From: Typhlomys cinereus
Taxonomy: Eukaryota; Chordata; Mammalia; Rodentia; Platacanthomyidae
DNA length: 64,000 nucleotides
Reading direction: 5' to 3'
Assembly (NCBI GenBank): GCA_023101885.1
Contig: JALPQD010000304.1
Location: 1,240,001 to 1,304,000 of the forward strand
Shown: piece by piece, positions 6,142 through 62,912 of the stretch
How positions within the stretch are numbered: position 1 is the first letter of the stretch
How the letters are laid out: each line of letters opens with the position of its first letter
Notes under the pieces: model-generated
Databases searched by the model: none
What the model saw: the letters and a program-made list of their open reading frames with translations, nothing else
What the model was told of the DNA's origin: nothing
Program-made: the position numbers and the translations under genes

Positions 6142-6142
6142 A

Positions 6143-11591: not shown

Positions 11592-11593
11592 AA

Positions 11594-11960: not shown

Positions 11961-12002
11961 TCAGTTTAGTGAAATTGAAAGATCTTAAGAGTTAAAACGA
12001 CA

Positions 12003-13017
12003 ATGCCAAAGTCAAAGTGCAAATCCATGAGAAGCAACACTCAAGTAAACAAATTTCCCACTGAAGAAATTAATCCCATAATGTTAGACTCCAACCAGAA
12101 CAAACCCACGGAAAAAGGCCAAGAAAGCCTGACCCAGGGGAAATCAGGGAGGAATTACATAATCGAATCAATTGCTTTGAAGAGGAACACAACAGACATT
12201 TGGAGGAGTTGAGAAAAACAGTGCAAGAAACAAAAACTGGCATAGAGCAGTTAAAACAGACTCAAGCAGAGTTTAAAACTGAGCTACAAGACAAGTTATC
12301 TTCAACCCAGAACTCTACAGAGAGTCTTATCAACAGAACTAATGAAGCAGAAAACAGAATTTCAGACCTTGAAGATAAAGTGGGAGTACTAACCAGCTCA
12401 ATGGAAGAGGTTGTTAAAGCCAAAAAGATACTTGAGAGAAATATCCAAGAGATATGGGACACCCTGAAGAAGCCTAACATGCGTATTCATGGAATACCAG
12501 AGCAAGAATCTCAAAATACCACCCCTGAGGAAATTTTTCAACGATCATCAAGGAAAACTTTCCTCATATAAAAAAAGAGAGGCCCATCCATATACGAGAG
12601 GCATTCCGCACCCCAAACAGATACGACCAAAACAGAAGCACGCCACGGCAAATAATAGTTAAAACGCTCCACATTCAAGATAAAGAACTGGTGCTGAGAG
12701 CTTCAAGGGAGAAAAAACAAGTCACTTTTAAAGGTAAACCTATTAAAAAAACAAATGACTTCTCAGTCGAAACAGTAAAAGCAAGAAGAGCTTGGAGAGA
12801 CATACTTCAAGTATTGAATGAGCAAAAATGTCAACCCAGGCTGATTTACCCTGCAAAACTATCAGTCATGATTGAGGGAGAAAGAAAAACTTTCCAGCAC
12901 AAAGACAACTTGAAGGGATACATGTCCACCAAACCAGGCCTTCAAAAAATGCTAGAAATGATACTCAAGCGTGAAGAAAAAAACAGGCATATCCAGGAGA
13001 ACAGAAGGCAAATATAA
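12003..13017 (+). pseudogene. L1 element 2 ORF1 (RNA-binding chaperone), frameshifted
   Basis: ORF1p of LINE-1 is a trimeric RNA-binding protein with a coiled coil, an RRM and a C-terminal domain. Here the ATG at 12003 opens MPKSKCKSMRSNTQVNKF. The frame breaks near 12195 and again near 12541, where one base is missing relative to the sister copy at about 19817. The coiled coil lies at about 12200-12470, and the RNA-binding part runs from HGIPEQESQN (12487) to the C-terminus with MLRASREKKQVTFKGKPI (12691 on). Two frameshifts make it non-functional. The third L1 at 19503 carries a parallel copy. Confidence 0.85.
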
Positions 13018-13067
13018 CACCATTAAAAGCGAAGCAATATACTTATAAAAACTACTAAACATAATAA

Positions 13068-16000
13068 ATGTCTGGAATTAAAAATAGTTTCTCCATTATA
13101 ACACTAAATGTTAATGGAATTAACTCACCGATCAAGAGACACAGATTACAAACTTGGATTAAAAATCACAATCCATCAATCTGCTGCCTGCAGGAAACCC
13201 ATCTCACCACAAAAGATAGGCACGTTCTAAAAATAAAAGGCTGGTCAACAATTCTACAAGCCAATGGAAGCAGAAAACAGGCAGGGGTAGCCATTATGCT
13301 ATCAGACAAAGTGGATTTCAAACCAAAAAAAAATTATAAGAGACACGGATGGATACTATATTTTAGTCACAGGTACAATTCACCAGGAAGACTTCACAAT
13401 ACTGAACATTTATGCACCCAATACGGGCCCCTCCACATTCATTAAGAAAACCCTACAGCGTCTAAAGCAAGAAATCAACCCCCACACGATAATTCTTGGG
13501 GACTTCAACACCGCCCTCTCAACATGGGATAGATCAACAGGTCAAAAGCTTAACAGAGACACTCTGGAAATTAATCAAACCCTGAAAGAAATGGACCTTA
13601 CAGATCTCTATCGAACTTTTCACCCATGCAACAAAGAATACACATTTTTCTCAGCAGCACACGGAACTTTCTCCAAAATAGATCACATACTGGGCCACAA
13701 AACTAATCTACACATATACAAAGAAGTTGAAATTCTAACCTGTGCCCTATCAGACCACCACGGCCTAAAGCTGGACATCCACAACACATCAAACAAGAGA
13801 AAATACACTAACTCCTGGAAACTTAACAATATGATGCTGAATGAGAACTGGATTCAGGAAGAAATTACAAAGGAAATTCAAGATTTCCTGAAAGTGAATG
13901 ATAACGAAAATACAACTTACCAAAATCTCTGGGATACAATGATAGCTGTCCTAAGAGGTAAGTTCATAGCTCTTAATGCCTACATCAAAAAAAATGGACA
14001 CATCAGAAATAAACAACTTAACAATGCAGCTTAAAGCTTTAGAGAAACTAGAGCAATCTGATCCCAAAAGTAGTAGAAGAGAGGAGATTAGCAGAATAAG
14101 GGGAGAAATATCTGAAATCGAGATTAAGAAAATGATAGAAAAAATCAACCAGTCAAAAAGCTGGTTCTTTGAAAAAATCAATAAGATTGATACACCCCTA
14201 GCTAAACTAACCAAAAGCAAGAGAGAGAAAACCCAAATTAACAAAATTAGAAATGAACATGGAGTTATCACTACTGATACCCAAGAAATCCAGAGAATTA
14301 TAACATCATATTTCAAAAACTTATATTCTGTGAAGCTTGACAACACAAAAGAGATGGATGAATTTCTAAGTAAACACAACTTACCTAAATTGAATCAGGA
14401 AGTTGTGAATTATTTAAATAGTCCTATAACATATAAGGAAATTGAGGAAGCAATCTCGAATCTTCGCACCAAAAAATGTCCTGGACCAGATGGATTCAGC
14501 ACAGAGTTCTACCAGACATTTAAGGAGTTAATAACACCAATACTCCTTAAACTGTTCCATCAAATAGCAAAGGAAGGAACACTACCAAATTCCTTCTATG
14601 AAGCTAATAGCATCTTAATCCCAAAACCTAATAAAGATTCACTTAAAAAAGAAAACTATAGGCCGATCTCTCTGATGAACACAGATGCAAAGATTCTCAA
14701 CAAAGTCTTAGGAAATCGGATTCAACAACATATCAAAAAGATCATTCACAGGGACCAAGTAGGCTTCATCCCCGGCACACAAGGTTGGTTCAACATACGC
14801 AAATCAATAAATGTAATTCATCATGTAAACCAGTCCAAAGTCCAAGACCACATGATACTCTCGATAGATGCAGAAAAAGCCTTTGACAAAATCTAACAGC
14901 CTTTTATGACCAAAACACTAGAGACTGTAGGAATGAAAGGAACTTTTATCAATATAATAAAAGCTGTATACAACAAGCCCACAGCAAGGATTATGCTCAA
15001 TGGGGAACAATTGGAAGCATTCCCACTTCAATCAAGAACTAGACAAGGCTGTCCACTCTCACCACTTCTATTCAATATTGTACTTGAAGTCTTAGCTGAA
15101 GCCATAAGACAAGAAAGGGACATAAGAGGGATTCAAATCGGCAAGGAAGAAGTCAAGCTATCCCTATTTGCAGATGACATGATCTTATACCTGAGTGATC
15201 CCAAAAACTCCACCAGGAAGCTCCTGGAACTCATTGAGAAGTTCAGCAGGGTGGCAGGATACAAAATAAATGTGCAAAAATCAGAGGCCTTCCTATATGC
15301 CCAGAATGAAAGAAGTGAAAAAGCCTTGAGAGAAACAATCCCATTTACTATAGCCCCTAAAAAAATGAAATACCTTGGTATAAACCTAACTAAGGAGGTA
15401 AAAGACCTTTACAATGAAAACTTTAAAACCCTAAAGAAAGAAATAGCAGAAGACACCAGAAGGTGGAAAGACCTCCCTTGTTCCTGGATTGGTAGAATCA
15501 ACATTGTAAATATGACCATCCTACCAAAGGCAATATACAAATTCAATGCTATACCAATTAAAATCCCAAAGCAATTCTTTAAAGAAGTTGAACAAATAAT
15601 CTCAAAATTCATATGGAGGCACAAAAGACCCAGGATAGCAAAGACAATCCTGAGTAATAAAAACACTGCTGGAGGTATTACCATACCAAACCTTAGTCTA
15701 TACTACAAATCCATAGTTGTAAAAACTGCCTGGTACTGGCTCCAAAATAGACACACAGATCAATGGATAAGGGTTGAAGACCCAGATATAAGCCCACAAA
15801 AATACAGCCATTTGGTCTTTGACAAAGGGGCCCAAAGAATCCAATGGAAAAAGAACAGCATCTTCAACAAATGGTGCTGGCAAAATTGGATCTCCACATG
15901 CAGAAGATTAAAGCTGGACCCATACTTGTCACCATGTACAAGACTTAATTCCAAATGGATCAAGGACCTTGATTTAAGGCCAGAGACTTTGAAAACCATA

Positions 16001-16816
16001 GTTGAAAGGATAGGGAACTCCCTCGAGCTGATTGGGCTAGGCCAACATTTCCTAAACAGACATTCAGTGGCACAGTCACTGCTACCAACTCTCAACAGTT
16101 GGGATCTTGTGAAATTAAAGAGCTTTTGTTCAGATAAAGAGATTGTAACACGAGCTCAAAGGCAACCCACAGAATGGGAGAAAATCTTCACTAACCACAT
16201 ATCTGACAGAGCTCTACTGTCCAGAGTGCACAAAGAACTTAAAAAACTAAACACCAAGGAAAACAATGGCCCAATTAAAAAATGGGCCCTGGAACTTAAA
16301 AGAAACTTTACCAGGGATGAAATTAAAATGTCTAACAAATATCTGAAAAAATGCTCCACTTCCTTAGCCATCAAGGAAATGCAAATCAAAACCTCCCTGA
16401 GATATCATCTCACCCCTGTCAGGATGGCAAAAATCCACAATACAAACAACGACAAATGCTGGAGAGGATGTGGAGAGAGGGGAACTCTCCTACATTGCTG
16501 GTGGGAATGCAGGCTCATACAGCCACTCTGGCGAGCCGTCTGGAGATTCTTAAAGAAATTAAAGATTGAAATGTCATATGACCCTGCTATTCCACTTTTG
16601 GGAATAACCCCCCATGCAGCAGAGGTTCGCCTCGATAGCACAAGCTCGACCATGTTCATAGCAGCACTGTTTACAATAGCAAAGTCGTGGAATCAACGTA
16701 AATGTCCAACAGTTGACGAGTGGATAAGGAAACTGTGGTACATCTATACAATGGAGTACTACTCAGCCATCAAAAATAATGAATTACTGGAATTTGTGGG
16801 AAATGGATGTCATTAG
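13068..16816 (+). pseudogene. L1 element 2 ORF2 (endonuclease and reverse transcriptase), broken
   Basis: The product would be the L1 endonuclease/reverse transcriptase. The endonuclease starts at the ATG at 13068 with ITLNVNGINSPIKRHRLQTW and the CCLQETHL motif (about 13179). The reverse transcriptase core has [17 protein letters not shown] (about 14475) and the catalytic FADD at 15167-15178. A C-terminal Cys/His knuckle ([18 protein letters not shown]) lies at about 16457-16510. The frame is lost near 13320-13440 and again near 13980, and a CAA-to-TAA type stop sits at 14894-14896. The long intact stretch 14906-16816 suggests a fairly young copy. Confidence 0.9.
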
Positions 16817-40689: not shown

Positions 40690-41038
40690 GGATCCTATGG
40701 GCTCTAAGATCCTAAGAGGCAAGGGATTAACAGCCACAGTAGTGTTCCTATACTAAAAGGGAACACAAAAAAGAGCTCTAGACAATGCTACTGAGTCCTT
40801 ACACCTCATCATAGAGGAGGACCCAGAGGGAAGTTTGACATACACACTAAAGGATGCTCCAGGAATGGGGGGAAGGGCACTGGGAGAAAGGGAGGGAGGA
40901 GGGAAAGGAAGGGGAAAAGGGGGGAGGGAGCAAAGGGATCCAGGGAGGGGTGGAGGAAGGGAGGAGAATGGGGTACCTATCAAGTTTTTATGAGTGCAAA
41001 AAATAAATTTAAAAAATGTCACATGACAAAAAAAAAAG
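40690..41038 (+). mobile_element. 5'-truncated L1 3' UTR
   Basis: TAAGAGGCAAGGGATTAACA, TATACTAAAAGGGAACAC and TCCTTACACCTCATCA match the 3' UTR of L1 element 3 at 25905-26000. A polypurine tract follows (about 40866-40965), then an A-rich tail. Target duplication not resolved. Confidence 0.8.
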
Positions 41039-41660
41039 AAATCTTAGCACCAAAGTGTAAAAATCATTTGGAATTGTAGTTTCTATAGAAAGTGAAAATG
41101 GATTTTTTTTTAAAAAGGGGGAACAAAAGTTCAAATCAGTAGTTGTGTAATACTGGGCAAACTATGGGAACCATCTTTCAGCAGTGTACTGGACTATTTG
41201 CTATTTCTCCTGGACTGACATTTGCATACCACACTGATCTGTAGATCACTCACAAAAAGGTGACAACTTTCGCCCCATCATTCAGAGGCATATTCTAAAA
41301 TGCCCAGTGTGTGCCTAAAAGTATGGATAGTTCCAGTCATGCATGCCTATAATAAAGTTACTTATAAACTCTAGCTAGCAATGGAGAATAAGAGAAAATT
41401 TGGAAGAAAATATACTGTAATACAAGTCATTTAAAACTTATAAGCTGTTTATTTCTGGAAATTTATGCTTAACATTTCTGGACCATAGTGAGCTGGAGAT
41501 AAATTACAACCTCAGAAATCAATACCTCGGATTAGGGGGTGCTCCAGCATGTACTAACAAGAGCAGAGACCCCTGCTATGCCACAGCCCTGCCAAGACAG
41601 CGTTCCTGTCTACAGAACAGAATACCAATCCTGATTCTGTCCTTCTTTGGGCTTATATTC
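41039..41660. other. Non-coding stretch, nothing recognised
   Basis: No gene, RNA or repeat could be supported. Confidence 0.4.
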
Positions 41661-41663
41661 TCT

Positions 41664-41718
<55 letters not shown>

Positions 41719-41937
41719 GTGGAGGACTAAGGGTGACTTCAGGAACTAACCTGGATTCCTTCTACCTCCTTTTTGCTTCACTCTGGGATTTCCCAGGCTC
41801 CGCCCATCGGGGGCCAGAAGTACAGGCCTCCCTCATTTTCTGCTTGACATTTTTATGTAGGACCTGGGATTGGAACTCAGGACCTTCTGCTTGTGAAGCC
41901 GAGTCTTAACCTCTAAGCCATTTCTCTAGTCCAGGCT
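41661..41937 (-). repeat. Old SINE, reverse, with GT/GA microsatellite
   Basis: GT repeat then GA repeat (41661-41716) as the tail on the minus strand, followed by the SINE body and head (GGACTAGAGAAATGGCTTAG on the minus strand, ending at 41932). Its right part is included in the long duplication copied at 43926. Confidence 0.8.
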
Positions 41938-42018
41938 TGTATTCTTAGAAAGGTCTTTAGTTTCTTGATGCCTCGATTTCCTTTTCTGCTGAAGGGGACT
42001 CCTTCTACCTGCTTCTTT
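41776..42018. repeat. Left copy of a duplication of about 240 bp flanking an L1
   Basis: Runs from CTTCACTCTGGGATTTCCCA to CTCCTTCTACCTGCTTCTT. The same sequence, with a deletion of about 22 bp and a few substitutions, is found at 43926-44146. It includes half of an old SINE and unique flank. Read as an exceptionally long target-site duplication. Confidence 0.8.
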
Positions 42019-45645: not shown

Positions 45646-48600
45646 CACTGATCACTAGCATTCCCTCTCTACTTCCTGACTGATCACTAGTGTCCCTCTC
45701 TACTTCCTGACTGACCACTAGCATCCCTCTATACTTCCTGACTGATCACTAGTGTCCCTCTCTACTTCCTGACTGATCACTAGTGTCCCTCTCTACTTCC
45801 TGACTGATCACTAGCATTCCCTCTCTACTTCCTGACTGATCACTAGTGTTCCCTCTCTACTTCCTGACTGATCACTAGTGTCCCTCTCTACTTCCTGACT
45901 GATCACTAGTTCCCTCTCTACTTCCTGACTGATCACTAGTGTTCCCTCTCTACTTCCTGACTGATCACTAGTGTCCCTCTACTTCCTGACTGATCACTAG
46001 TGTCCCTCTCTACTTCCTGACTGATCACTAGCGTCCCTCTCTACTTCCTGACTGATCACTAGTGCCTCTCTACTTCCTGACTGATCACTATCTTCCCTCT
46101 CTACTTCCTGACTGATCACTAGTGTCCTCTCTACTTCCTGACTGATCACTAGTGTCCCTCTCTACTTCCTGACTGATCACTAGTGTCCCTCTCTACTTCC
46201 TGACTGATCACTAGTTCCCTCTCTACTTCCTGACTGATCACTATCGTTCCCTCTCTACTTCCTGACTGATCACTAGTGTCCCTCTCTACTTCCTGACTGA
46301 TCACTAGCGTTCCCTCTCTCTACTTCCTGACTGATCACTAGTGTCCTCTCTACTTCCTGACTGATCATCTTTCCCTCTCTACTTCCTGACTGATCACTAG
46401 TGTCCTCTCTACTTCCTGACTGATCACTAGTGTCCCTCTCTACTTCCTGACTGATCACTAGCGTCCCTCTCTACTTCCTGACTGATCACTAGCATCCCTC
46501 TATACTTCCTGACTGATCACTAGTGTCCTTCTCTACTTCCTGACTGATCATTAGTGCCCTCTCTACTTCCTGACTGATCACTAGTGTCCCTCTCTACTTC
46601 CTGACTGATCACTAGCGTTCCCTCTCTACTTCCTGACTGATCATTAGTGCCCTCTCTACTTCCTGACTGATCACTAGTCCCTCTCTACTTCCTGACTGAT
46701 CACTAGTGTCCCTCTCTACTTCCTCCTGACTGATCACTAGCGTTCCCCTCTCTACTTCCTGACTGATCTCCAATGCCCTCTCTACTTCCTGACTGATCAC
46801 TAGTGTCCCTCTCTACTTCCTGACTGATCACTAGCGTTCCCTCTCTACTTCCTGACTGATCACTAGTGTGCCTCTCTACTTCCTGACTGATCACTATCAT
46901 TCCCTCTCTACTTCCTGACTGATCACTAGTGTCCTCTCTACTTCCTGACTGATCACTAGCATCCCTCTCTACTTCCTGACTGATCACTAGTGTCCCTCTC
47001 TACTTCCTGACTGATCACTAGCATTCCCTCTCTACTTCCTGACTGATCATTAGTGCCCTCTCTACTTCCTGACTGATCACTAGTGTCCCTCTCTACTTCC
47101 TGACTGATCACTAGTGTTCCTCTCTACTTCCTGACTGATCACTAGCATTCCCTCTCTACTTCCTGACTGATCACTAGTGTCCTCTCTACTTCCTGACTGA
47201 TCACTAGTGTCCCTCTCTACTTCCTGACTGATCACTAGTTCCCTCTCTACTTCCTGACTGATCACTAGTGTCCCTCTCTACTTCCTGACTGATCACTAGT
47301 GTCCCTCTCTACTTCCTGACTGATCACTAGTGTCCCTCTCTACTTCCTGACTGATCACTAGTGCCCTCTCTACTTCCTGACTGATCACTAGCGTCCCTCT
47401 CTACTTCCTGACTGATCACTAGTGTGCCTCTCTACTTCCTGACTGATCACTATCATTCCCTCTCTACTTCCTGACTGATCACTAGTGTCCCTCTCTACTT
47501 CCTGACTGATCACTAGTGTCCCTCTCTACTTCCTGACTGATCACTAGTGTCCTTCTCTACTTCCTGACTGATCATTAGTGCCCTCTCTACTTCCTGACTG
47601 ATCACTAGTGCCCTCTCTACTTCCTGACTGATCACTAGCGTTCCCTCTCTACTTCCTGACTGATCGTAGTGCCCTCTCTACTTCCTGACTGATCACTAAT
47701 GTCCCTCTCTACTTCCTGACTGATCACTAGCATCCCTCTCACTTCCGACTGATCACTAGCATCCCTCTCTACTTCCTGACTGATCACTAGCGTTCCCTCT
47801 CTACTTCCTGAATGATCACTAGTGTGCCTCTCTACTTCCTGACTGATCACTATCATTCCCTCTCTACTTCCTGACTGATCACTAGTGTCCTCTCTACTTC
47901 CTGACTGATCACTAGTGTCCCTCTCTACTTCCTGACTGATCACTAGCGTCCCTCTCTACTTCCTGACTGATCACTAGTGTGCCTCTCTACTTCCTGACTG
48001 ATCACTATCATTCCCTCTCTACTTCCTGACTGATCACTAGTGTCCCTCTCTACTTCATGACTGATCACTAGTGTCCCTCTCTACTTTCCTGACTGATCAC
48101 TAGGTCCTTCTCTACTTCCTGATGATCATTAGTGCCCTCTCTACTTCCTGACTGATCACTAGTGCCCTCTCTACTTCCTGACTGATCACTAGCGTTCCCT
48201 CTCTACTTCCTGACTGATCGTTAGTGCCCTCTCTACTTCCTGACTGATCACTAATGTCCCTCTCTACTTCCTGACTGATCACTAGCATCCCTCTCTACTT
48301 CCTGACTGATCACTAGCATCCCTCTCTACTTCCTGACTGATCACTAGTGTCCCTCTCTACTTCCTGACTGATCACTAGCGTTCCCTCTCTACTTCCTGAC
48401 TGATCATTAGTGCCCTCTCTTCTTCCTGACTGATCACTAGTGTCCCTCTCTACTTCCTGACTGATCACTAGTGTCCCTCTCTACTTCCTCCTGACTGATC
48501 ACTAGCGTTCCCTCTCTACCTCCTGACTGATCTCCAATGCCCTCTCTACTTCCTGACTGATCACTAGTGTCCCTCTCTACTTCCTGACTGATCACTAGCG

Positions 48601-51600
48601 TTCCCTCTCTACTTCCTGACTGATCACTAGTGTGCCTCTCTACTTCCTGACTGATCACTATCATTCCCTCTCTACTTCCTGACTGATCACTAGTGTCCTC
48701 TCTACTTCCTGACTGATCACTAGCATCCCTCTCTACTTCCTGACTGATCACTAGTGTCCCTCTCTACTTCCTGACTGACCACTAGCATCCCTCTATACTT
48801 CCTGACTGATCACTAGTGTCCCTCTCTACTTCCTGACTGATCACTAGTGTCCCTCTCTACTTCCTGACTGATCACTAGCATTCCCTCTCTACTTCCTGAC
48901 TGATCACTAGTGTTCCCTCTCTACTTCCTGACTGATCACTAGTGTCCCTCTCTACTTCCTGACTGATCACTAGCATTCCCTCTCTACTTCCTGACTGATC
49001 ACTAGTGTTCCCTCTCTACTTCCTGACTGATCACTAGTGTCCCTCTCTACTTCCTGACTGATCATTAGTGCCCTCTCTACTTCCTGACTGATCACTAGTG
49101 CCCTCTCTACTTCCTGACTGATCACTAGCGTTCCCTCTCTACTTCCTGACTGATCGTTAGTGCCCTCTCTACTTCCTGACTGATCACTAGTGTGCCTCTC
49201 TACTTCCTGACTGATCACTATCATTCCCTCTCTACTTCCTGACTGATCACTAGTGTCCTCTCTACTTCCTGACTGATCACTAGTGTCCCTCTCTACTTCC
49301 TGACTGATCACTAGCGTCCCTCTCTACTTCCTGACTGATCACTAGTGTGCCTCTCTACTTCCTGACTGATCACTATCATTCCCTCTCTACTTCCTGACTG
49401 ATCACTAGTGTCCCTCTCTACTTCCTGACTGATCACTAGTGTCCCTCTCTACTTCCTGACTGATCACTAGTGTCCTTCTCTACTTCCTGACTGATCATTA
49501 GTGCCCTCTCTACTTCCTGACTGATCACTAGTGTCCCTCTCTACTTCCTGACTGATCACTAGCGTTCCCTCTCTACTTCCTGACTGATCATTAGTGCCCT
49601 CTCTACTTCCTGACTGATCACTAGTGTCCCTCTCTACTTCCTGACTGATCACTAGTGTCCCTCTCTACTTCCTCCTGACTGATCACTAGCGTTCCCTCTC
49701 TACTTCCTGACTGATCTCCAATGCCCTCTCTACTTCCTGACTGATCACTAGTGTCCCTCTCTACTTCCTGACTGATCACTAGCGTTCCCTCTCTACTTCC
49801 TGACTGATCACTAGTGTGCCTCTCTACTTCCTGACTGATCACTATCATTCCCTCTCTACTTCCTGACTGATCACTAGTGTCCTCTCTACTTCCTGACTGA
49901 TCACTAGCATCCCTCTCTACTTCCTGACTGATCACTAGTGTCCCTCTCTACTTCCTGACTGATCACTAGCATTTCCTCTCTACTTCCTGACTGATCATTA
50001 GTGCCCTCTCTACTTCCTGACTGATCACTAGTGTCCCTCTCTACTTCCTGACTAATCACTAGTGTCCCTCTCTACTTCCTGACTGATCACTAGCATTCCC
50101 TCTCTACTTCCTGACTGATCACTAGTGTCCTCTCTACTTCCTGACTGATCACTAGTGTCCCTCTCTACTTCCTGACTGATCACTAGCATTCCCTCTCTAC
50201 TTCCTGACTGATCACTAGTGTGCCTCTCTACTTCCTGACTGATCACTATCATTCCCTCTCTACTTCCTGACTGATCACTAGTGTCCTCTCTACTTCCTGA
50301 CTGATCACTAGTGTCCCTCTCTACTTCCTGACTGATCACTAGCGTCCCTCTCTACTTCCTGACTGATCACTAGCATTCCCTCTCTACTTCCTGACTGATC
50401 ACTAGTGTGCCTCTCTACTTCCTGACTGATCACTATCATTCCCTCTCTACTTCCTGACTGATCACTAGTGTCCCTCTCTACTTCCTGACTGATCACTAGT
50501 GTCCTTCTCTACTTCCTGACTGATCATTAGTGCCCTCTCTACTTCCTGACTGATCACTAGTGCCCTCTCTACTTCCTGACTGATCACTAGCGTTCCCTCT
50601 CTACTTCCTGACTGATCGTTAGTGCCCTCTCTACTTCCTGACTGATCACTAGTGTCCCTCTCTACTTCCTGACTGATCTCCAATGCCCTCTCTACTTCCT
50701 GACTGATCACTAGCATTCCCTCTCTATTTCCTGACTGATCACTAATATTCCCTCTCTACTTCCTGACTGATCACTAGTGTCCCTCTCTACTTCCTGACTG
50801 ATCACTAGCGTTCCCTCTCTACTTCCTGACTGATCACTAGTGTCCCTCTCTACTTCCTGACTGATCACTAGTGTCCCTCTCTACTTCCTGACTGATCACT
50901 AGCGTTCCCTCTCTACTTGCTGACTGATCACTAGTGTCCCTCTCTACTTCCTGACTGATCACTAGCGTTCCCTCTCTACTTCCTGACTGATCACTAGTGT
51001 CCCTCTCTACTTCCTGACTGATCACTAGTGTCCCTCTCTACTTCCTGACTGATCACTAGCGTCCCTCTCTACTTCCTGACTGATCACTAGTGTGCCTCTC
51101 TACTTCCTGACTGATCACTATCATTCCCTCTCTACTTCCTGACTGATCACTAGTGTCCCTCTCTACTTCCTGACTGATCACTAGTGTCCCTCTCTACTTC
51201 CTGACTGATCACTAGTGTCCTTCTCTACTTCCTGACTGATCATTAGTGCCCTCTCTACTTCCTGACTGATCACTAGTGCCCTCTCTACTTCCTGACTGAT
51301 CACTAGCCTTCCCTCTCTACTTCCTGACTGATCGTTAGTGCCCTCTCTACTTCCTGACTGATCACTAATGTCCCTCTCTACTTCCTGACTGATCACTAGC
51401 ATCCCTCTCTACTTCCTGACTGATCACTAGCATCCCTCTCTACTTCCTGACTGATCACTAGTGTCCCTCTCTACTTCCTGACTGATCACTAGTGTCCCTC
51501 TCTACTTCCTGACTGATCACTAGTGTCCTTCTCTACTTCCTGACTGATCATTAGTGCCCTCTCTACTTCCTGACTGATCACTAGTGCCCTCTCTACTTCC

Positions 51601-53532
51601 TGACTGATCACTAGCGTTCCCTCTCTACTTCCTGACTGATCGTTAGTGCCCTCTCTACTTCCTGACTGATCACTAATGTCCCATTCTACTTCCTGACTGA
51701 TCACTAGCATCCCTCTCTACTTCCTGACTGATCACTAGCATCCCTCTCTACTTCCTGACTGATCACTAGTGTCCCTCTCTACTTCCTGACTGATCACTAG
51801 TGTCCCTCTCTACTTCCTCCTGACTGATCACTAGCGTTCCCTCTCTACTTCCTGACTGATCACTAGTGTGCCTCTCTACTTCCTGACTGATCACTATCAT
51901 TCCCTCTCTACTTCCTGACTGATCACTAGTGTCCTCTCTACTTCCTGACTGATCACTAATGTCCCTCTCTACTTCCTGACTGATCACTAGTGTCCCTCTC
52001 TACTTCCTGACTGATCACTAGCATTCCCTCTCTACTTCCTGACTGATCATTAGTGCCCTCTCTACTTCCTGACTGATCACTAGTGTCCCTCTCTACTTCC
52101 TCCTGACTGATCACTAGCGTTCCCTCTCTACTTCCTGACTGATCTCCAATGCCCTCTCTACTTCCTGACTGATCACTAGTGTCCCTCTCTACTTCCTGAC
52201 TGATCACTAGCGTTCCCTCTCTACTTCCTGACTGATCACTAGTGTGCCTCTCTACTTCCTGACTGATCACTATCATTCCCTCTCTACTTCCTGACTGATC
52301 ACTAGTGTCCTCTCTACTTCCTGACTGATCACTAATGTCCCTCTCTACTTCCTGACTGATCACTAGTGTCCCTCTCTACTTCCTGACTGATCACTAGCAT
52401 TCCCTCTCTACTTCCTGACTGATCATTAGTGCCCTCTCTACTTCCTGACTGATCACTAGTGTCCCTCTCTACTTCCTGACTGATCACTAGTGTCCCTCTC
52501 TACTTCCTGACTGATCACTAGCATTCCCTCTCTACTTCCTGACTGATCACTAGTGTCCCTCTCTACTTCTTCCTGACTGATCACTAGTGTCCCTCTCTAC
52601 TTCCTGACTGATCACTAGCGTTCCCTCTCTACTTCCTGACTGATCACTAGTGTCCCTCTCTACTTCCTGACTGATCACTATCATTCCCTCTCTACTTCCT
52701 GACTGATCACTAGTGTCCCTCTACTTCCTGACTGATCACTAGTGTCCCTCTCTACTTCCTGACTGATCACTACACGTCAGCGTCCCTCTCTACTTCCTGA
52801 CTGATCACTAGTGTGCCCTCTCTTCCTGACTGATCACTATCATTCCCTCTCTACTTCCTGACTGATCACTAGTGTCCCTCTCTACTTCCTGACTGATCAC
52901 TAGTGTCCCTCTCTACTTCCTGACTGATCACTAGTGTCCTCTCTACTTCCTGACTGATCATTAGTGCCCTCTCTACTTCCTGACTGATCACTAGTGCCCT
53001 CTCTACTCCTGACTGATCACTAGCGTTCCCTCTCTACTTCCTGACTGGATCGTTAGTGCCCTCTCTACTTCCTGACTGATCACTAGTGTCCCTCTCTACT
53101 TCCTGACTGATCTCCATGCCCTCTCTACTTCCTGACTGATCACTAGCATTCCCTCTCTTTTCCTGACTGATCACTAATATCCCTCTCTACTTCCTGACGA
53201 TCACTAGTGTCCTCTCTACTTCCTGACTGATCACTAGCGTTCCCTCTTACTCCTTGTCCCTCTACTTCCTGATGACTAATGCCCTCTTACTTCCCTGATC
53301 ATAGCGTTCCCTCTCTACTTTCCTGACTGATCACTAGTGTCCCTCTCTACTTCCTGACTGATCACTAGCGTTCCCCCTCTACTTCCTGACTGATCACTAG
53401 TGCCCTCTCTACTTCCTTGACTGAGGTCACTAGCGTTCCTCCTCTCTGACTGATCAGTTCCCCTCTACTCCTGACTCAAGCATTCCTCTCTACTTCCTGA
53501 CCGATCACTAGTGTCTCTCTCCCTTTCCTGAC
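45646..53532. repeat. Minisatellite array of 7.9 kb, unit about 31 bp
   Basis: Roughly 250 tandem copies of a unit whose constant core is TACTTCCTGACTGATCACTA. A variable part follows (GTGTCCCTC, GCGTTCCCTC, GCATTCCCTC, TCATTCCCTC, GTGCCCTC, GTGTGCCTC), giving units of 30-32 bp. The unit holds two overlapping palindromes, TGATCA and CACTAGTG. Copies are nearly uniform through most of the array and decay strongly at the right edge (53150-53530). The minus-strand open frames here (reading ISQEVERDTSDQSGSRE) are by-products of repeat length and phase and are not proposed as genes. Confidence 0.97.
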
Positions 53533-53709
53533 TGAGATGCAATGTGACCAGCCTCCTCACACTCTTACTGCCATAACTTCTCTTCCATAGTGGACTGTGT
53601 CCTTTGGGGAGGAGGTACGGGGAGATCGCAAGCTGAAATAAACCTTTCTGTCCTTTACGTTGCTTCTTGTCAGGTATGTTGTCACAGCAACAAGGATGTA
53701 ACTAACACA
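53533..53709 (+). repeat. Right half of the interspersed rodent repeat
   Basis: GATGCAATGTGACCAGCCTC, GCTGAAATAAACCTTTCTG, GTTGCTTCTTGTCAGGTATG and AGTAACTAACACA-like ending. This is the well-known tail of a common rodent repeat and continues the front at 45498 if the array is removed. Confidence 0.75.
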
Positions 53710-53833: not shown

Positions 53834-54126
53834 AATTCAGCTTCACGAAATGGAATGCTCGTGGAGAGCACGCCTTCCTCAAATCCTTGAGGAACTTACA
53901 GGGGAAGAGCTGGAAAAGTTTAAGTTCCAGCTGCTCAACATAGATCTTGCCACGGAATACGAGCACATTAAACGGGGTGCTCTACAGAATGCAACCATAG
54001 TGAAACTTGCTGACCTATTGCTCCAGCACTATGGAGAAGAGTATTCCAAGTCTGTGACCAAGGATGTCCTGAAGGCCATAAACCAACGCAGCCTGGCTGA
54101 GAAGATCACTCTGTCAGTGGAAAAAC
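53834..54126 (+). CDS. PYRIN-domain exon of the PYD-VLIG gene
   Basis: A splice acceptor (CCTCAG ending at 53833), ATG at 53850 and splice donor GTAAGT (54127 on) define an exon with 92 codons plus one base (phase 1). The protein MECSWRARLPQILEELTGEE, KFKFQLLN, KLADLLLQHYGEEY, VLKAINQRSLAEKI is a PYRIN (death-fold) domain with the usual pattern LEELTGEELEKFKF. It most resembles the MEFV/ASC-type branch. PYDs assemble inflammasomes and other death-fold filaments. The coding part starts at 53850; 53834-53849 is 5' UTR. It could belong to an independent PYD-only gene, but splice phases link it to 56587 and 57491. Confidence 0.85.
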
Positions 54127-55015
54127 GTAAGTCTTGAAATAATCCACCTCTCTTTTGTTGAACATGATTCAAAACATCCCTGAAATAATTCCGTTGTGAC
54201 TAATTCAGCAGCAAGACTGAAATGTAATAGTTTTGCAGGATTTTTATGTCCAAGTTCTTACGTTCAGGAGTTAAAGACCAAGGCCAGAATATGAGTAGAA
54301 AATTAAGGCAGAGTTTATTAAAGGAGAGAAATAATGGAATCCAAGGACATAAAGTCCATGAGGGATAAAGGACCCCAAACGAACTCAGGGACACCGGACA
54401 TGGAGGCCAAAGATTGCCAGCAGGGTTATGGATATTTGCAAACTTGAGCAAACTGGGGAAAAGTGGCCTTTTGTCATTGATGAAGTTCTAATATCGGTAA
54501 ACCTGATGGGCTTCTGGCTCCATGTGATTGGAAGCCCAGCGCAGCCCACGGTAGACTTTCTGGCAGAGCTGTTTCTTCTGAGGAACTTAGCACATTTGCA
54601 TGTGAGGAGCTCCTCCCCACCTGTACCTGGAACACATAACCATATCCTTCAGAAACAAAGAGCTGAGGGAAGCTGGTACCTTATCTCACTGAGGGTTGAC
54701 ACCACATGCCCCATTGCATAGCTATGGCGGTATCTTCCAGAAAGATTTTCTCAGCAAACTTTCTACTATGTCTAAACTGCCTGAAAACAACTATGTTAAC
54801 TGAAATCCTGCACTAGCTGCCTAACAAAAATTGCTACCTCTCTCAATAGAAACTGTGTTTCATGGTGTTTTAAAAATATTTTAGAAAGCTGAATTCACTT
54901 ACTATAAAATTAATTGTTTTAAGGCACCAATTCAGTGGCATTCACAGTGTGATGAACCAACTGACTCTATCTAGTTTCAGAAATTTTCCATTACTCTAAA
55001 CTCAAAACCCTTTCC
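54127..55015. other. Intron part, nothing recognised
   Basis: Intron 1 of the PYD-VLIG gene, which begins with a consensus donor. No further exon or named repeat could be supported in this part. The open frames seen here lack splice context. Confidence 0.45.
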
Positions 55016-55580
55016 CAGGGCTGGCAAGATGGTATAGTGGATAAAAGTGCTAGTGCACAAGTTTGACAATCTGAATTTGGTTCCCAGATTCCCAAGGTCA
55101 CAGAAAATTGTCCTCTGACCTTATTGCAGGTAAATTCATTACCAAATGGCTTGAGGAAACAAGGGTGGTTTTATTTTCTCTTATGATAGACCAATCACAG
55201 TTCTTAATCCAGCTTGGCAGGAGAGTCCATATCAATACTAGGGGTTGAAGGAACTGGCCACACCATATTCATGTGCCCACAGGACTGCTGAGAGGAAGGG
55301 ATGATCCTTGCTTGCCAGAACAGAATGTCTGGCCAAGTATACCCAAGGATGCCAACTTCAACCAGTTCCCTCCATCTTATTCACCTGTCCAGGGCCTAGT
55401 CTCACCCGCCATGGTCAGGGTCTTCTTATCATCAGTCAGAAAATCCCCTGCAGACCTGTCCAGGGCTCAGCTCCAATTCTTCACGACTGTGCCCAGAACG
55501 CAACTTCAACCGCCAAGGTGATACCTGTATCTAACTATGATAGACCTCCACATGCATGCTGTAGCACACACATGCCTGCA
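55016..55580 (+). repeat. SINE (B4-like) split by about 430 bp of other sequence
   Basis: The head CCAGGGCTGGCAAGATGGTA to TTGTCCTCTGACC (55016-55119) and the tail GACCTCCACATGCATGCTGT to GCACTTACC (about 55540-55580) belong to one rodent SINE. The 430 bp between are not part of it; no target duplication beyond GACC was found. Within intron 1. Confidence 0.55.
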
Positions 55581-55582
55581 CT

Positions 55583-55638
<56 letters not shown>
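55581..55638. repeat. CT microsatellite in intron 1
   Basis: About 28 CT units following a SINE tail. Confidence 0.95.
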
Positions 55639-55642
<4 letters not shown>

Positions 55643-56586
55643 TTTTAATTTTTTTTCCCAATAAGGAGTTTCTCCCCATTCCCTACTCTCTACTCTTCCC
55701 AGATCCTGGAAGTCATCAAGTCACAGTCACTATGTTGCATGACTGTGTCCTGGACATTTCCATATTCTAGATATTTTATCTAAATGATTTTATAATATAT
55801 GATTCTTTGTGATCGCCTCCTTTGAACTTCATTCATGCAACATATATCCATATTTCATTTATTTTATACCTGAATAAAATCCAGTTGTATGTGACACTTC
55901 ATTTTTTCATTCAATTGTTGATGAGTATTTAAGCCACTCTCTGTTTCTACAATAGTGAAATTATTAATATGTTTGTTCACATACTAGATTTACTATCTGT
56001 GTTCAACTCCTTTGAATATTTACTAAGAGATAGACTAGGAACAGCAAGTTTTTTCATGGTGGCTGAACCATTTTGCATTTTCTCAGCAATGCACAAATTT
56101 CATAATCCTTCTCTAGCACTTACTTTTTCAAGTGCTTCATGGTCATTTGTATGTCTTTGTTGAAGAAATTCAGTTCTTTTGCCTATTTTTAATCCGGTTG
56201 TTTTGGGGGTCTTTGTTTGGGTTTAGGTTTTTTGTGCGTTGCTACTGAGTTGTAGGATATTCTTAAATAATTTACAAGGTTTCCCCTTATAAGATAGTTT
56301 TGCAAATCTTTTCTCCCTTCCCACAGGTTGCCTTTTCACTCTATTTCCTTTGCTATATCAAATTTCTTAGTTCAATGTAGTCTGGTTTGATTATTATTCA
56401 TTTTGTGACATTTTTATTTCCCACATGCCTCATCTCAAGAGAGATCATTTCTTACATCTGAGAAACAGATACTAATGTTAAATTTACATAAACTGTTTAT
56501 ACCAAACTAGTGATTAAAGGTGAGAAACAGATCCTTTCTTGCTTTGCTTTAATTGTGAAGTTAACAAACATTATTTTCCTCCAAAG
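55639..56586. other. Intron part, nothing recognised
   Basis: AT-rich, ends in a pyrimidine stretch and the acceptor CCAAAG at 56581-56586. A diverged L1-like antisense flavour near 56300-56345 is possible but not firm. Confidence 0.4.
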
Positions 56587-56675
56587 CTGGATCTTCTGCT
56601 GGGAAGTCTGCAAAAAAGGCAAACAAGAGGAAACAAGAAAGCAAAGCTGAACCAGATGAAGATAAATGGCCAAAG
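56587..56675 (+). CDS. Lys-rich linker exon of the PYD-VLIG gene
   Basis: An 89-bp exon between an acceptor (TTTTCCTCCAAAG) and a donor (AAAG then GTTTGC). It starts in phase 1 and ends in phase 0. Joined to the PYD exon it reads PGSSAGKSAKKANKRKQESK and then AEPDEDKWPK without a stop. The basic KKANKRK may be a nuclear localisation signal, and the composition resembles the linker that follows the PYD in PYHIN proteins. The exon is short, so the call rests on exact phase fit on both sides. Confidence 0.65.
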
Positions 56676-57490
56676 GTTTGCAGCCCGTTTTTGTCCAAAT
56701 ATTTCTGCCTTGAAATGGGATGGTCATAGGATGTTCAATTCTCAGAGACTCCCTGTCTCCTGTATCCTTTGCACCACAGTCGCTCTGTGTCAGTACCAAC
56801 ATGCCTCTAAGGAGTTCTGGACAAGAGCCAAGTCCCAAATAGCTCTAGTCCTCTGTGACAACGGGCATATTGCTTGATTTTTCTAAGCCATTCATTACTC
56901 TCTAAAATGTTTTAACCAAGGGATGAAATGTATTCCCACCTCAATTTTGAAAGACTTGAAACCCAAATAAAAAATTGAATTTTACTTATTAAAATTCAAT
57001 TAATTTTCCTTTTAGTTTTTTCACTAGTCAAACATTTTTTTGCTCATGTGTTCTAGATCACTTTCTGTTACCTAATATAGTTTACATAGTTTTGCCTTGG
57101 CTTTTCTGCTCCGTTTATCTAAGAAGCCCCATCAACACAAGTTATGGTAGGTTTTTTCCTTTTTTTTTTTATTTTTTAGATCCTCCCATAAGCTTTTTGG
57201 TTTAATCTGCAACATTAGTTCAGTAAAATCTTTCTCCACCTTTGTTTCCCAGGAAAATCCATCATGTTATGGTGCATTTTAAATTTGATGCCATTGTGTT
57301 TTAATTTGCATAACAGTGCATTTTGTTTAACCGCATGAATTATGTTTCTTTCTTGGATCAAACCATTGTCAAACAGTAAGAGGTCTTGACTTTTTTAAAC
57401 TAAGAGCTATATTAATACATGCAAAAATAAGCTTAAATTAGTCTCTTTATTATAGAAACAGACAATATCACCTTTTCTATTCCTTTCTAG
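56676..57490. other. Intron 2, nothing recognised
   Basis: AT-rich. Ends in the pyrimidine tract TATTCCTTTCTAG (acceptor at 57489-57490). Confidence 0.5.
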
Positions 57491-59660
57491 AAAATCAAAA
57501 ACATCTTTAACCAAAAGAAATCAAATGGACCTTCTCCTAAAGTCAGAGATCAATCAAGCAATGGCAAGGAAGGAACAAATAGAAGTCCACGCTTTTATGG
57601 CTTAATCCAACGGCTCAATCTAGAATGTTATTATACCAAGAAGATGACCAAGGCCAATTTTCTCTTGATAAATAAGATTTCCTACCTTGACTTTCAACCA
57701 AAAGCTGAGGGAGATTTACCACATTGTTTTCTAGAGAGGCTTTTGGTGTTAGATTACCATTTAAGGTTCCTTGTTTTCAGAGGCAACAGAAAGACTATTT
57801 GTGATACACCCCAGACAGCTAAAACTACAGAGTCTGAAAGAAATTTGATGACATTTGAGGAATTTTTCACTCTTAAGGAACCACATCTGACTACAACACC
57901 AACTAACATCCATCCAATGGAAATCCAAATGGCAATTTTTCACTGTGCCGATGACTTTACAAGACAGTTTATTTTAACCAAACTTTCCATTTGTCAGTTT
58001 GCTCTTCCATTTTTGGTGCCCAATCCCTGCAATTCTGAAATTGAATTCCCTCTTTGGTCTCTTGGACAAATCAGAAAAAGTTGGAAGGAAGTGGAAAAAA
58101 TAGGCTGGGAGAAAAAAATCCGAAATTATGATAGCCACCTGATTAGTTCACAGCCCATACACATTGTATCATTCATAAGAATTGGGGATGCATCTACTTC
58201 TAAGTCACAGATTCTGAATTTACTCCTAAGTAAGGGCAAACATGATCATTTTTTTCACGATCATTCTAGGAAAGTCAGTAACAGCTGTCTACTGATGGAT
58301 GGGATGGTGGAAATCTGCTGGTTCTGTCCAGGTGGGAGAGCTGAAGATAGATTTGAGAACTGTATTGCCTTTGCCAATCTCCATGGAAATGCAGAAACAC
58401 ATGAGAAACAAGTCAGGTTCTTGCATGAGGTCTCCTCGGTCACTGTACTCCTCCTGTCAGCGTTAGATGTTGCAAAAATGAACACATCTATTCTACGTGA
58501 ATTTTGGGATTCGCTCAAGCCTCTCATCTGTCTGGTTGAAAATGTAGAAAATATTGTGGAGGAGAAATACGCTCCTTACAGAGCAAGAATTGGCATAAAA
58601 AATGTAAACAAGGTAGAACTGACTGATAAAATTACAGCTACATTAACACAGCTGATGAAAGAGTCTATATCACCTTCCAGCTTGCGTAACTGTGCCGACG
58701 TAGCAAAGCGGCATGGGTTTATCATTGATGAGGACCAAAGACACTTCCAGGAAGCAGGAAAAAAAGCAGACAACATTGTAGGTCTCTTGAAAAAAGTAAA
58801 ATTGTCTCAGATTAAAGAAAAGTTACTACCACTTCAGGGACAGCTATGGCATGATTGGTGCAAGAAAGACAAGGAATTCTATCACCTGACAGAAAAGAGA
58901 AACAAGAACATTGAACAATACAAGAATGAGATGGAGAAGGAAAAGCAAAATATACGCTGGGAACAATATCACAAAGTAATTAACCTTAATGATCTGATGA
59001 TGTCACTCCTTGAAAGTCTTCAATCACACCCAGAAACTCACACTGAGCTCTACTTTCTGCAAAAACTGAGTGTGTTGCTGGATGAACTAACCAAGACAGA
59101 CTTAGAAACCCTGCACCAGAGGCACAGTTTCCTGCAGACGCAGGTGCAGACAGAGAAGCCAAAGCAATCAAAGGCAGATTCCATCAAGCGTTGGAAGGCT
59201 GATCTACAAGCTGTTTCCAAAGAAATCAGCAATTCCACCCTAGGACCTGAGCATCTCCTCAGAGAGTTGGGCCAGATCTATGAAGCCCTGGAAGAAACTT
59301 CCTCCCAGACAAATACACTGTACCTGTCCATTCCCCAAATGGTTGCTGACCTTATGGTATCTGGAGTCCCTATCGAGCTGATGGATGGGGATGCTTCTTA
59401 TGTGCCCGTGAAGTGGGTGGCAGCTGTTTTTGACAAACTCACTGAGAAACTGGGAGACAAGCGGGTATTTGTTCTTTCTGTCCTTGGACTGCAGGGCTCA
59501 GGAAAGTCTACTCTGCTGAATGCCATGTTTGGGCTCCAGGTCAGTCTCAGTATTAAGAGGTGTACTCGAGGGGCCTTCATGCAGCTCTTGAAGGTGGAAG
59601 AGATGCTCAGAGAAGAGCTGGGCTTTGATTTCTTACTTGTCCTGGACTCAGAAGGACTGA
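57491..59660 (+). CDS. GVIN1-like: PYD-VLIG large exon, first part: URGCP-like block and GTPase P-loop
   Basis: The frame is open from the splice acceptor, 51 codons before the first ATG (57644), reading KIKNIFNQKKSNGPSPKVRD and then RFYGLIQRLNLECYYTKKM. This aligns with gene A from about 2905 on. Further matches: CQFALPFLVPNP, SKSQILNLLL, EICWFCPGG, DEDQRHFQEAGKKAD, VSGVPIELMDGDASYVP, the P-loop GLQGSGKST (about 59488-59511) and the G3-type DSEG at 59645-59656. It lacks the long N-terminal half of GVIN1, which the PYRIN and linker exons replace. The ATG at 57644 would be the start only if the upstream exons are not used. The frame is lost just after GLRA near 59665. Confidence 0.88.
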
Positions 59661-61277
59661 GAGCAGCCTCCGCCCAACAACAAAGCACACAACGAGGAAA
59701 ATGAACTGGCAACCTTTCTCATTGGACTTGGAAACTTAACTTTAATCAATATTTTTGGACCAAACCTATCAGAAACTCAAGATGTTCTACAAATAGTTTT
59801 TCATGCCCTTCTCAGGATGAAAAAACTGAATATCTCCCCAAGTTGCCTGTTTGTTCATCAGAGCACAGAAGACATCATAGATACAAATCAAAGTATGGCG
59901 AGACGAAGACGGCTGCAAGAGAAATTAAATGAAATGGTACTTGCTGCAGCTAAATATGAACAGCGCTCTGATGTACGCAACCTCAGCGATGTCATCGAGT
60001 TTGACATCAAAACCCACATCAACTATTTTGCCCGTCTGTGGGAAGGTTATCCCCCAATGGCTCCACCCAATCCCTGTTATAGCCGCAATGTCCAGGAACT
60101 GAAAACTAGGATTCTTTGGCTTGCCAGGGAAAAATGCAGGGGCAGTATTTTGAAAATATCAGAATTTAAAGTCCGGATACGGGACTTGTGGAAAGCCCTG
60201 GTGAATGAGAACTTCATTTTCAGATTCAGGAACACAAAAGAGGTGATTGCTATGAACAAGCTGGAAACCACATACAACAGATGGGCCTGGGAGCTGCGAA
60301 GTCATGTGATGAGCTTGCAGAATCAGCTGACCAACCAGATTCAGAATGGATTCAATAAGGAGATACAGAGAAGTTCAATTGAGAACCAAGTTGTGGGAAA
60401 ACATGAAGCCATTAAACGAGAACTTGAAAAATTCTTTAGAGAAGAACGTGATAGAGATGTATTGGATCAGTGGAAAGAAAAATTTGAAGATGATCTGACG
60501 ACGCTTCAAGAAGTGCTTGTAGCAGAAACTATGAGAAAATGTGAGGATGTGATTAATGCAACTAAATTCCAAGACTATTTAAAGAGGGAAAAGGTAAAAA
60601 TTGAACATAAGTTACAGGAAAAAATCAGAGGGATGACCATGTCTTGCAAAGGCACTGAGGTACGTGAGAAGGAGCTTAAGGAGATGTTCAACAGGATCTG
60701 GTCAGAGAGCATCTCCGTTCCACTGCCTCCCTCACTCCCATCTACAGAGGAGCCTGACGTCGATGCTGACCTTGAGAACATTCTGCTAGAATATTTCAAG
60801 CAGCACCCTAATATTGTCAATAAAATTAGATATCGTGGTACAAAGAAACCATTTTCTATCAATTATTCCAAGCATGTTATCACTTCTCAAAAGTCACAAA
60901 TTTATGAGCCTTGTGTGGAAGATTTTGAAAAAGACATCATAAAGAAGACAACAGCCGAAATTATGAAAGTAGTTAAAGAAGCCCTAAGTATATGGGAACA
61001 GCACAATAACGGGTACAGCGCTAGCTACTTTCATGAAATTCTACGAGTGATTGATATTAAGACAGCGGACGCAGCTCAAGAAGCCACATTCATACTAACC
61101 AACAGATACAAATTTGAACTTGCCCTAGAGCTATTCCAAGAGGCAGCAAATATTTTCAAAAGGATAAAGACTGCATTTAAAGAAGCAAATAACCCTATCT
61201 TGTATCTAGAGAACCAAAAAGAGGAAATTTTTAAGAACTTTAAGTTGTCCTACAAAAACTGCCAAAACAATGATTGA
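59661..61277 (+). CDS. GVIN1-like: PYD-VLIG large exon, second part after a frameshift
   Basis: Open from 59661, reading PPNNKAHNEENELATFLIGL and FVHQSTEDIIDTNQSM, and continuing in register with gene A (NELATF), so one extra base near 59665 is the likely cause. About 538 residues, mostly helical after the G domain (RFRNTKEVIAMNKLETTYN, NPILYLENQKEEIFKNFKL). It stops at 61275-61277, some 330 residues before the end of gene A. The aromatic and Cys/His C-terminus is absent. Total predicted product with the shift ignored: about 1383 residues. Type could equally be given as pseudogene. Confidence 0.82.
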   Translation, partial: EQPPPNNKAHNEENELATFLIGLGNLTLINIFGPNLSETQDVLQIVFHALLRMKKLNISPSCLFVHQSTEDIIDTNQSMARRRRLQEKLNEMVLAAAKYEQRSDVRNLSDVIEFDIKTHINYFARLWEGYPPMAPPNPCYSRNVQELKTRILWLAREKCRGSILKISEFKVRIRDLWKALVNENFIFRFRNTKEVIAMNKLETTYNRWAWELRSHVMSLQNQLTNQIQNGFNKEIQRSSIENQVVGKHEAIKRELEKFFREERDRDVLDQWKEKFEDDLTTLQEVLVAETMRKCEDVINATKFQDYLKREKVKIEHKLQEKIRGMTMSCKGTEVREKELKEMFNRIWSESISVPLPPSLPSTEEPDVDADLENILLEYFKQHPNIVNKIRYRGTKKPFSINYSKHVITSQKSQIYEPCVEDFEKDIIKKTTAEIMKVVKEALSIWEQHNNGYSASYFHEILRVIDIKTADAAQEATFILTNRYKFELALELFQEAANIFKRIKTAFKEANNPILYLENQKEEIFKNFKLSYKNCQNND

Positions 61278-61359
61278 TTTCTTCTTGGGGCAAAGGATGT
61301 CTCCTGCCTTGCAAACTAGTGTAAACACTCAAAAAAAAAAAAAAAAAAAAAAAAAAAAA
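61278..61359. other. Short 3' flank and A29 run
   Basis: After the stop, homology to gene A fades within about 20 bp. A pure run of 29 A follows (61331-61359). No target duplication was found, so whether this is a retroelement tail cannot be decided. Confidence 0.6.
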
Positions 61360-62912
61360 CAGTTACTTCTCAGCTTTCTTGTCCTCTGTTACCTTCTCTT
61401 CTGTGACATTTCTATAATCCAGAAAATGAAATCTAACCAATTAAGCAAATAGTTTTGTGAGGGGCTTTAGAATTAATGTATGATTAATAATCTCGGAGAT
61501 ATTGTTTTACAAAAAGTTCAAATAAAATGCATGTTATAAATAAAATATTCAATTCACTTTTCTGAATAATATAACAAGTAATGTAAAAATTTTTACAAAC
61601 CAAATAGAAATAAAAATGATAAAAAATTAACTGAGTGTATAGAACTAACTTCTTCCCATCCCTTTTCTTTCTTTTCCTTCTTCCTTTCTTCCTTCTTCCT
61701 TTTTCCTTCCTTCCTTCCTCCCTCCCATTCCTTCTTCTCTGCCTCCTTCTTTCCTTCTTTCTTCTGTTAGCTTAACGCTCAGTTAAGTAGCTACTAGCCA
61801 GGGAATCTGGTACATGCCAGAAACATACAGTAATAAAGATCGGAGCTTCTGGGCGTTATTTTAAGTGCGCAAAGAACAGTCTCTTTTTCTCTTCTCTCTA
61901 GATTGTTAATAAAACTCATGTTTGCTACTGCCATCTTGTAGGTCATGTTTTTTTCCTGATCGGTTCTCTAGTATTTGGTTTACAAATTTTGTTCAAACAC
62001 TAGTTGAAAGAAAGGAACAAAAATTACTGGATATAAAAAGTAATGGGATTTATACCCATTGAGATGGAGATAAAGTGAACAGAGGAAACCAGGCTTAGCT
62101 TGGTCTTTCTTGGGGAAACCATCAGAAAATGCCTTTCAGTTGAGGAAGTTGAAGCCTGAGCCAAATCTAGAAAAATGAGAATTGTCAAGCAAAAGAAAAA
62201 TTCCAGGCAGAGAGAAAAAGCTTATACATTTAGAAGAAGTAAAGGAAAGATAAAAACAGTATATAAATGTTCCATTACAAAACCCTATCTGATGATACCA
62301 TGCTCTCTCTAATATGATATCATAATAAGTATTTTCCTCTATAGTATTTTTTCCAATAACCCATAACCCTAAAATAAATATAGAAGTCCAAACTGAGGGA
62401 ATTATATAAATATTTACCCACTGTTATCTGAAAGTACAGAGGCCATCAGTACTAAAGACAGAGGAACTGAGAGATGTCAATATTACAGGAGCCTGACTGT
62501 ACAGTATAAGAGAATCTCTACACTCCTTGTAAATTTACTTTTCAACCAAAAACCACACTCTAAGTTATTGGAGTTTTATATAGCATTCAATACTTAAATA
62601 ATTTAATAATATAAATTTATTTCCTTTTTAAAGTTTTTCTTTACTCATTGCAGTTCTTTGATTCTTCATACAAATTTAAAAAACTACTTACCAATTTGTT
62701 TTTAAAAAAAACTCTGAGGATTTTTGATAGAAGTGACATTCAATACATAGATAATTAAATCTATCATTCCATAGATGTCTTCCAAACACTAAGTTAGTTA
62801 CACTTTGACATTTATTTAGATCTTCTTTCATTTACCACTGCAATGTTTCATCATAAAACAGAGTCCAGGAATAGATCGAAGTTTATATGGCCAATTTATG
62901 ATACCGTTATCC
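61360..62912. other. 3' flank with CT-rich stretch and possible poly(A) signals
   Basis: AATAAA words at about 61521 and 61909 could end the PYD-VLIG transcript. A CT/TTCC-rich low-complexity stretch lies at 61665-61770. No other gene or named repeat could be supported. Confidence 0.4.

Follow-up and report, generated by a model that had tools for sequence, protein, structure and literature searches.

A PYRIN domain joined to a VLIG-type GTPase core: an apparently undescribed mammalian gene, found in Typhlomys cinereus in a copy that is broken as assembled

Guanylate-binding proteins (GBPs) and GVIN1 coat microbes. PYRIN domains (PYDs) self-assemble, and regulators made of a PYD only also exist; to our knowledge, inflammasome sensors are in general proteins separate from the coating GTPases. 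In the VLIG/GVIN family of interferon-induced very large GTPases, GVIN1 is described in PMC11974893 as having two large-GTPase-like domains linked by a helical stretch and is reported there to form coats around bacteria; PMC7083018 reports the induction of three Rousettus GVINs by interferon omega (IFN-omega), which GVINs not being stated there. Might a coat-type GTPase carry a PYD of its own? This article concerns a 64,000-nucleotide stretch of DNA from the rodent Typhlomys cinereus (hereafter the window; assembly GCA_023101885.1, contig JALPQD010000304.1, positions 1,240,001 to 1,304,000, forward strand), in which a gene of this kind had been predicted from the letters alone. The sequence comparisons described below make it the Typhlomys orthologue of a mammalian gene that is apparently undescribed and that we call PYD-VLIG. 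A conserved protein that combines a coat-type GTPase with a PYD would, if true, provide a direct physical link from cell-autonomous coating to the assembly of inflammasomes.

The window gene extends over 7.4 kb of the plus strand, its two introns measuring about 2.5 and 0.8 kb. Its PYRIN-domain exon (53834..54126), identified by Pfam (PYRIN, E 6.3e-21), an AF2 model, Foldseek and splice signals, has the acceptor TTGTTTCCTCAG 5′ of 53834, an ATG at 53850 and, after 277 coding nucleotides, the phase-1 donor C/GTAAGT behind 54126. Because an acceptor stands directly before 53834, a further, non-coding 5′ exon is likely upstream; the rabbit model P0004 has IELHI ahead of the PYD methionine, and the window has IQLHE at the equivalent place. 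The 89-bp exon for the Lys-rich linker (56587..56675) is flanked by CCTCCAAAG on the 5′ side and CCAAAG/GTTTGC on the 3′ side, leads from phase 1 to phase 0, and matches the linkers of the orthologues P0003 (residues 89-132, E 3.5e-6) and P0005 (residues 92-119, E 3.5e-5). The VLIG exon (57491..61277), delimited by open reading frames (ORFs), Pfam and orthologue alignment, is entered in phase 0 through the acceptor CCTTTCTAG and encodes a URGCP domain (E 2.2e-96), a catalytic URGCP_GTPase domain and a helical tail; the tandem of URGCP and URGCP_GTPase that membership of the VLIG/GVIN family requires is thus present.

This third exon consists of two overlapping frames, 57491-59704 (737 amino acids) and 59661-61277 (538 amino acids), with Pfam URGCP_GTPase E-values of 1e-71 in the first and 3e-40 in the second. 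In the catalytic domain, the P-loop (G1) GLQGSGKST is found at 59486..59512, its GxxxxGKST positions being invariant in a 23-row alignment, and the G3 motif DSEGL at 59645..59659 is the last whole GTPase motif ahead of the frame change. The latter, the only one in the gene, follows G3 directly and is placed by the ORF list, the joined frame and the orthologue alignment in the overlap 59661..59704. The product as assembled would have 122 + 737 = 859 amino acids and stop at 59702-59704 with the rest of the GTPase domain lost; an unbroken frame from the ATG to the stop of the family is absent from this genome's copy as assembled. Splice signals, Pfam and the orthologue linkers bear out the PYRIN exon and the 89-bp Lys-rich exon of the original prediction, phases included, whereas its claims that the VLIG exon is open from its acceptor and that the three exons join without a stop hold as far as 59701 and not, as its end coordinate implied, up to 61277. 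Since the stop at 61277 is in the orthologue alignment the C-terminus shared by the PYD-VLIG family, the 3′ end of the gene is complete, and truncation on that side is ruled out. The first AATAAA after the stop (61521..61526, plus strand) is a candidate polyadenylation signal by motif match only, one of six in 61278-62500.

The joined 847-residue query was run against 5.8 billion proteins, the best 8,000 candidates by common words being scored and at least 100 proteins matching; residues 1-150 of P0001 and of P0005, used as further queries, gave 3 and 10 proteins. Among the matches listed, at least 11 protein clusters combine PF02758 with VLIG domains, PF25496 and PF25683 being both present in ten of the eleven and PF25683 alone in P0101. 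They come from Apodemus, Ictidomys, Oryctolagus, Equus przewalskii, Rhinolophus, Pipistrellus, Marmota, Bos mutus, Myodes and Scotinomys, with an additional “lgn” entry, P0002. The architecture is therefore not peculiar to Typhlomys: squirrels, rabbit, horse, bats and cattle have it too. The first proposal, in which the PYD is part of the VLIG gene, agrees with this shared layout in eleven clusters of other mammals, and the search for a PYD with a VLIG-type G domain suggested at the time for related rodents succeeded in Apodemus, Ictidomys, Marmota, Myodes and Scotinomys. The architecture had also been thought undescribed, and no paper describing a PYD-bearing VLIG was found in open-licence PMC full text.

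Seven full-length members of 1,370-1,413 amino acids align across all three window exons; five of them end at the window's last column, P0002 and P0008 ending 5 and 8 residues earlier. Compared in pairs, they are on average 68.5% identical over the PYD, 49.7% over the linker, 80.4% over the URGCP and G domains and 72.9% over the C-terminal part; the PYD is thus better conserved than the adjoining linker. No primate, carnivore, Mus or Rattus is named for the PYD-VLIG clusters among the matches listed, in which members inside clusters are unnamed, so that this is an absence from the listing and not a proof of loss; nor is there any entry from Afrotheria or Xenarthra among them. If human and mouse were truly without PYD-VLIG, mouse models would miss a defence branch of other mammals.

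Two trees place the gene. The GTPase-core tree (33 rows) unites its 15 PYD-VLIG lineage rows at 100/100, and a stem of 0.39 sets them off from nine ordinary VLIGs taken from this genome; within the lineage, the window groups with Apodemus and Microtus, and P0002 pairs with Ictidomys, both at 100/100. The PYD tree (46 rows) unites the 12 VLIG PYDs at 99/97, places the window with the muroids at 99/91 and makes MEFV the sister group of the VLIG PYDs at 94/83. The PYD exons of MEFV (L026) and ASC (L038) in this genome also have 277 coding nucleotides and a phase-1 donor; the match in length and phase fits a PYD exon that may have arisen as a copy of one in a pyrin-like gene before the split between rodents, rabbit, horse, cattle and bats.

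PYD-VLIG appears to be single-copy in this 2.68-Gb genome. Searches with the PYD protein, PF02758 and exon 3 gave 5, 46 and 41 matches, the best candidates being scored; no second PYD-VLIG was seen, and among the PYD matches only that of the window has a VLIG match within 10 kb. An orphan PYD exon, L039 (G000:C228:647201-647446, minus strand; positions 87-476 of L058), has an ATG and a phase-1 donor and stands in the PYD tree beside MEFV plus the VLIG PYDs (95/78). Its contig also has VLIGs, the nearest match being about 176 kb away; the ORF lists over 28 kb around it (L056-L058), in which many frames appear L1-derived by eye, contain no VLIG, no profile search having been made there. L039 may be a remnant, or else an additional PYD gene.

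The AF2 model of the window PYD (pLDDT 87.3) has the standard N-terminal PYD fold. Its best Foldseek E-value is to the human pyrin PYD 2mpc (3.3e-6), which the PDB sequence search also retrieves (1.2e-16), and the PYD-only regulator structures 4qob and 2hm2 are among its close PDB matches. At the charge positions of ASC, which we take to matter for contacts, E13 is kept in all 12 VLIG PYDs, and K22, R41 and D54 in 11 of the 12 each. These ASC-type positions being only partly kept, ASC is a candidate partner of the PYD.

Several observations weigh against the reading proposed here and are best considered together. The window copy is broken, and the full protein is impossible as assembled. Of the 14 rows that other species contribute to the lineage in the GTPase tree, seven (Microtus, Thomomys, Saccopteryx, Galemys and three “lgn” entries) are recorded without a PYD; three of them, P0010, P0013 and P0016, are frames that begin inside exon 3 on “lgn” contigs of about 4.9 kb and may be genomic pieces of that exon, incomplete models or PYD-less transcripts. 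The join of MEFV to the VLIG PYDs falls just below the starred level, and ASC-type K21, K26 and D51 occur in none of the 12 VLIG PYDs, with D48 in one. The rows without a PYD, the look of automatic models that most named orthologues have, and P0101 (Scotinomys), plainly a faulty model since it also bears L1 domains, would all suit a PYD exon that belongs to some other gene and was chained to a nearby VLIG exon by gene-prediction programs in several genomes. This explanation is nevertheless most improbable, for P0002 encodes the PYD, the linker and the GTPase core as a single frame of 1,382 amino acids on a contig of 4,677 bases, too short for the gene's introns, and therefore looks like a transcript; moreover, a small linker exon is conserved between the PYD and VLIG exons, the exon phases fit, and the PYD and GTPase trees concur in setting the window beside the muroids. 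A PYD lying next to a VLIG by chance is ruled out by the orthologues and the two trees. That the gene and its architecture are real can thus be held with great confidence. The frame change is another matter. It could be an assembly error confined to this genome, with the gene intact: it is single, no further stop occurs across about 1,260 exon-3 codons, and the window row differs at 25 of 466 otherwise invariant columns (5.4%), within the 0.5-6.4% of the 15 other rows, a comparison that gives no clear sign of decay beyond the frame change and implies that the latter is young or not real. Yet five other VLIG loci (L007, L009, L010, L011 and L015) stay open over 2,194-2,435 amino acids, which argues that the assembly is not generally rich in false indels, and in the cluster VLIG copies are often broken. 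An error is thus a serious but lesser possibility, and the frame change is probably biologically real. With a single change in the catalytic domain, the window copy is freshly inactivated, polymorphic, or misassembled at one place.

How, then, might PYD-VLIG work? The protein, of about 1,385 amino acids, comprises a pyrin (MEFV)-like PYD, the Lys-rich linker and a VLIG/GVIN core, the latter made of a GBP-like URGCP domain that lacks a standard P-loop, a helical stretch, the catalytic large-GTPase domain and a helical tail. By analogy with GBP-type GTPases, GTP binding would cause the core to dimerise or assemble on a target; the PYDs would cluster in turn and nucleate or join filaments of ASC or of another PYD protein, and these filaments would signal that a coated target is present. 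The layout of a PYD followed by a GTPase is that of an inflammasome-type sensor or scaffold and not that of the death-fold “adaptor” first suggested, its signalling role being predicted only. That the PYD activates signalling by recruiting a PYD partner is put at slightly under an even chance. It is a more tentative proposal that PYD-VLIG could be an unrecognised inflammasome-type sensor of placental mammals, whose GTPase coats an intracellular target and which signals through its own pyrin-like PYD; such a sensor would have gone unnoticed since the matches listed name no such protein from human or mouse, whereas horse, cattle, bats, rabbit and squirrels retain it. The same gene might instead encode a brake, its PYD, in the manner of PYD-only proteins, sequestering ASC or pyrin and its GTPase core placing or switching the inhibition. 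The lacking K21, K26 and D51 and the nearly absent D48 could mean binding without propagation, and 4qob and 2hm2 point in the same direction; however, the nearest PYD is that of pyrin, a sensor, and not that of POP1, and pyrin likewise lacks K21, D48 and D51, making inhibition unlikely. Less likely again is a purely homotypic PYD, with which the GTPase coat polymerises more strongly on its target and which recruits no inflammasome, as the coats around bacteria reported for GVIN1 in PMC11974893 and the partial match to the ASC interface might suggest: the long and variable linker would better suit a free signalling head. Taken as a whole, the preferred explanation, in which an undescribed PYD-VLIG orthologue in a damaged copy is combined with GTP-driven clustering of PYDs, stands at about even chances.

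As to an interferon link, the GAAANNGAAA scan gave 17 matches against 6.07 expected, a number reached in none of 100 shuffles; those closest upstream of exon 1, candidate elements only, are at 44106, 41977 and 41088. The TTCNNNGAA scan gave 30 matches against 29.23 expected, and follow-up of the interferon elements was confined to 40700-42000. About 254 copies of a 31-bp unit (89% matches) make up a minisatellite at 45647-53535, whose end is some 300 bp short of the PYD exon; it probably sits between that exon and its promoter. At the start of the window, an ordinary VLIG copy (296-7579) has three overlapping frames (296-1279, 1153-6153 and 6116-7579) and is apparently broken at two places; its nearest kin in the GTPase tree are other VLIGs of this genome. 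L1 retrotransposon frames (Transposase_22, RVT_1) lie at 11128-16816, between the two VLIG-type genes.

PYD-VLIG can finally be set beside the systems closest to it. With GVIN1 and the other VLIGs it shares the order of URGCP and URGCP_GTPase, a single giant exon, a core that also has two large-GTPase-like domains and a helical stretch, and 52-55% identity over that core to the VLIG at the window start. It differs from ordinary VLIGs in that their roughly 830 N-terminal residues are replaced by the PYD and linker, in that some 340 of their C-terminal residues have no counterpart, and in forming the separate lineage described above; the giant VLIG length of about 2,400 amino acids, with its N- and C-terminal regions, is not found, and the protein is not a GVIN of about 2,430 residues with an added PYD. 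GBP1 and other guanylate-binding proteins are also among the closest systems. Foldseek with the whole 1,120-residue model of P0014 was weak (2 matches at E <= 0.001), and a second look at that model (VIA) concerned residues 18-357 only, the catalytic G domain and tail being barely covered. In zebrafish, P0093 (GTPase IMAP family member 8) combines URGCP (PF25496) and PF04548, a further instance of immune GTPase modules being mixed. Pyrin has the nearest PYD by tree, PDB sequence search and Foldseek E-value, on an exon likewise of 277 coding nucleotides and phase 1, but the MEFV entries found carry a B-box (PF00643) and, in five of seven, PRY/SPRY (PF13765, PF00622), and not a GTPase. CARD6 is the nearest precedent, since it too has an N-terminal death-fold domain and URGCP (P0094 of Pteropus alecto: PF00619 with PF25496); its death-fold domain is however a CARD and not a PYD, P0094 has no listed URGCP_GTPase, and identity is 27% over 35% of the query. 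Together, PYD-VLIG and CARD6 suggest that VLIG-type cores have joined death-fold domains more than once.
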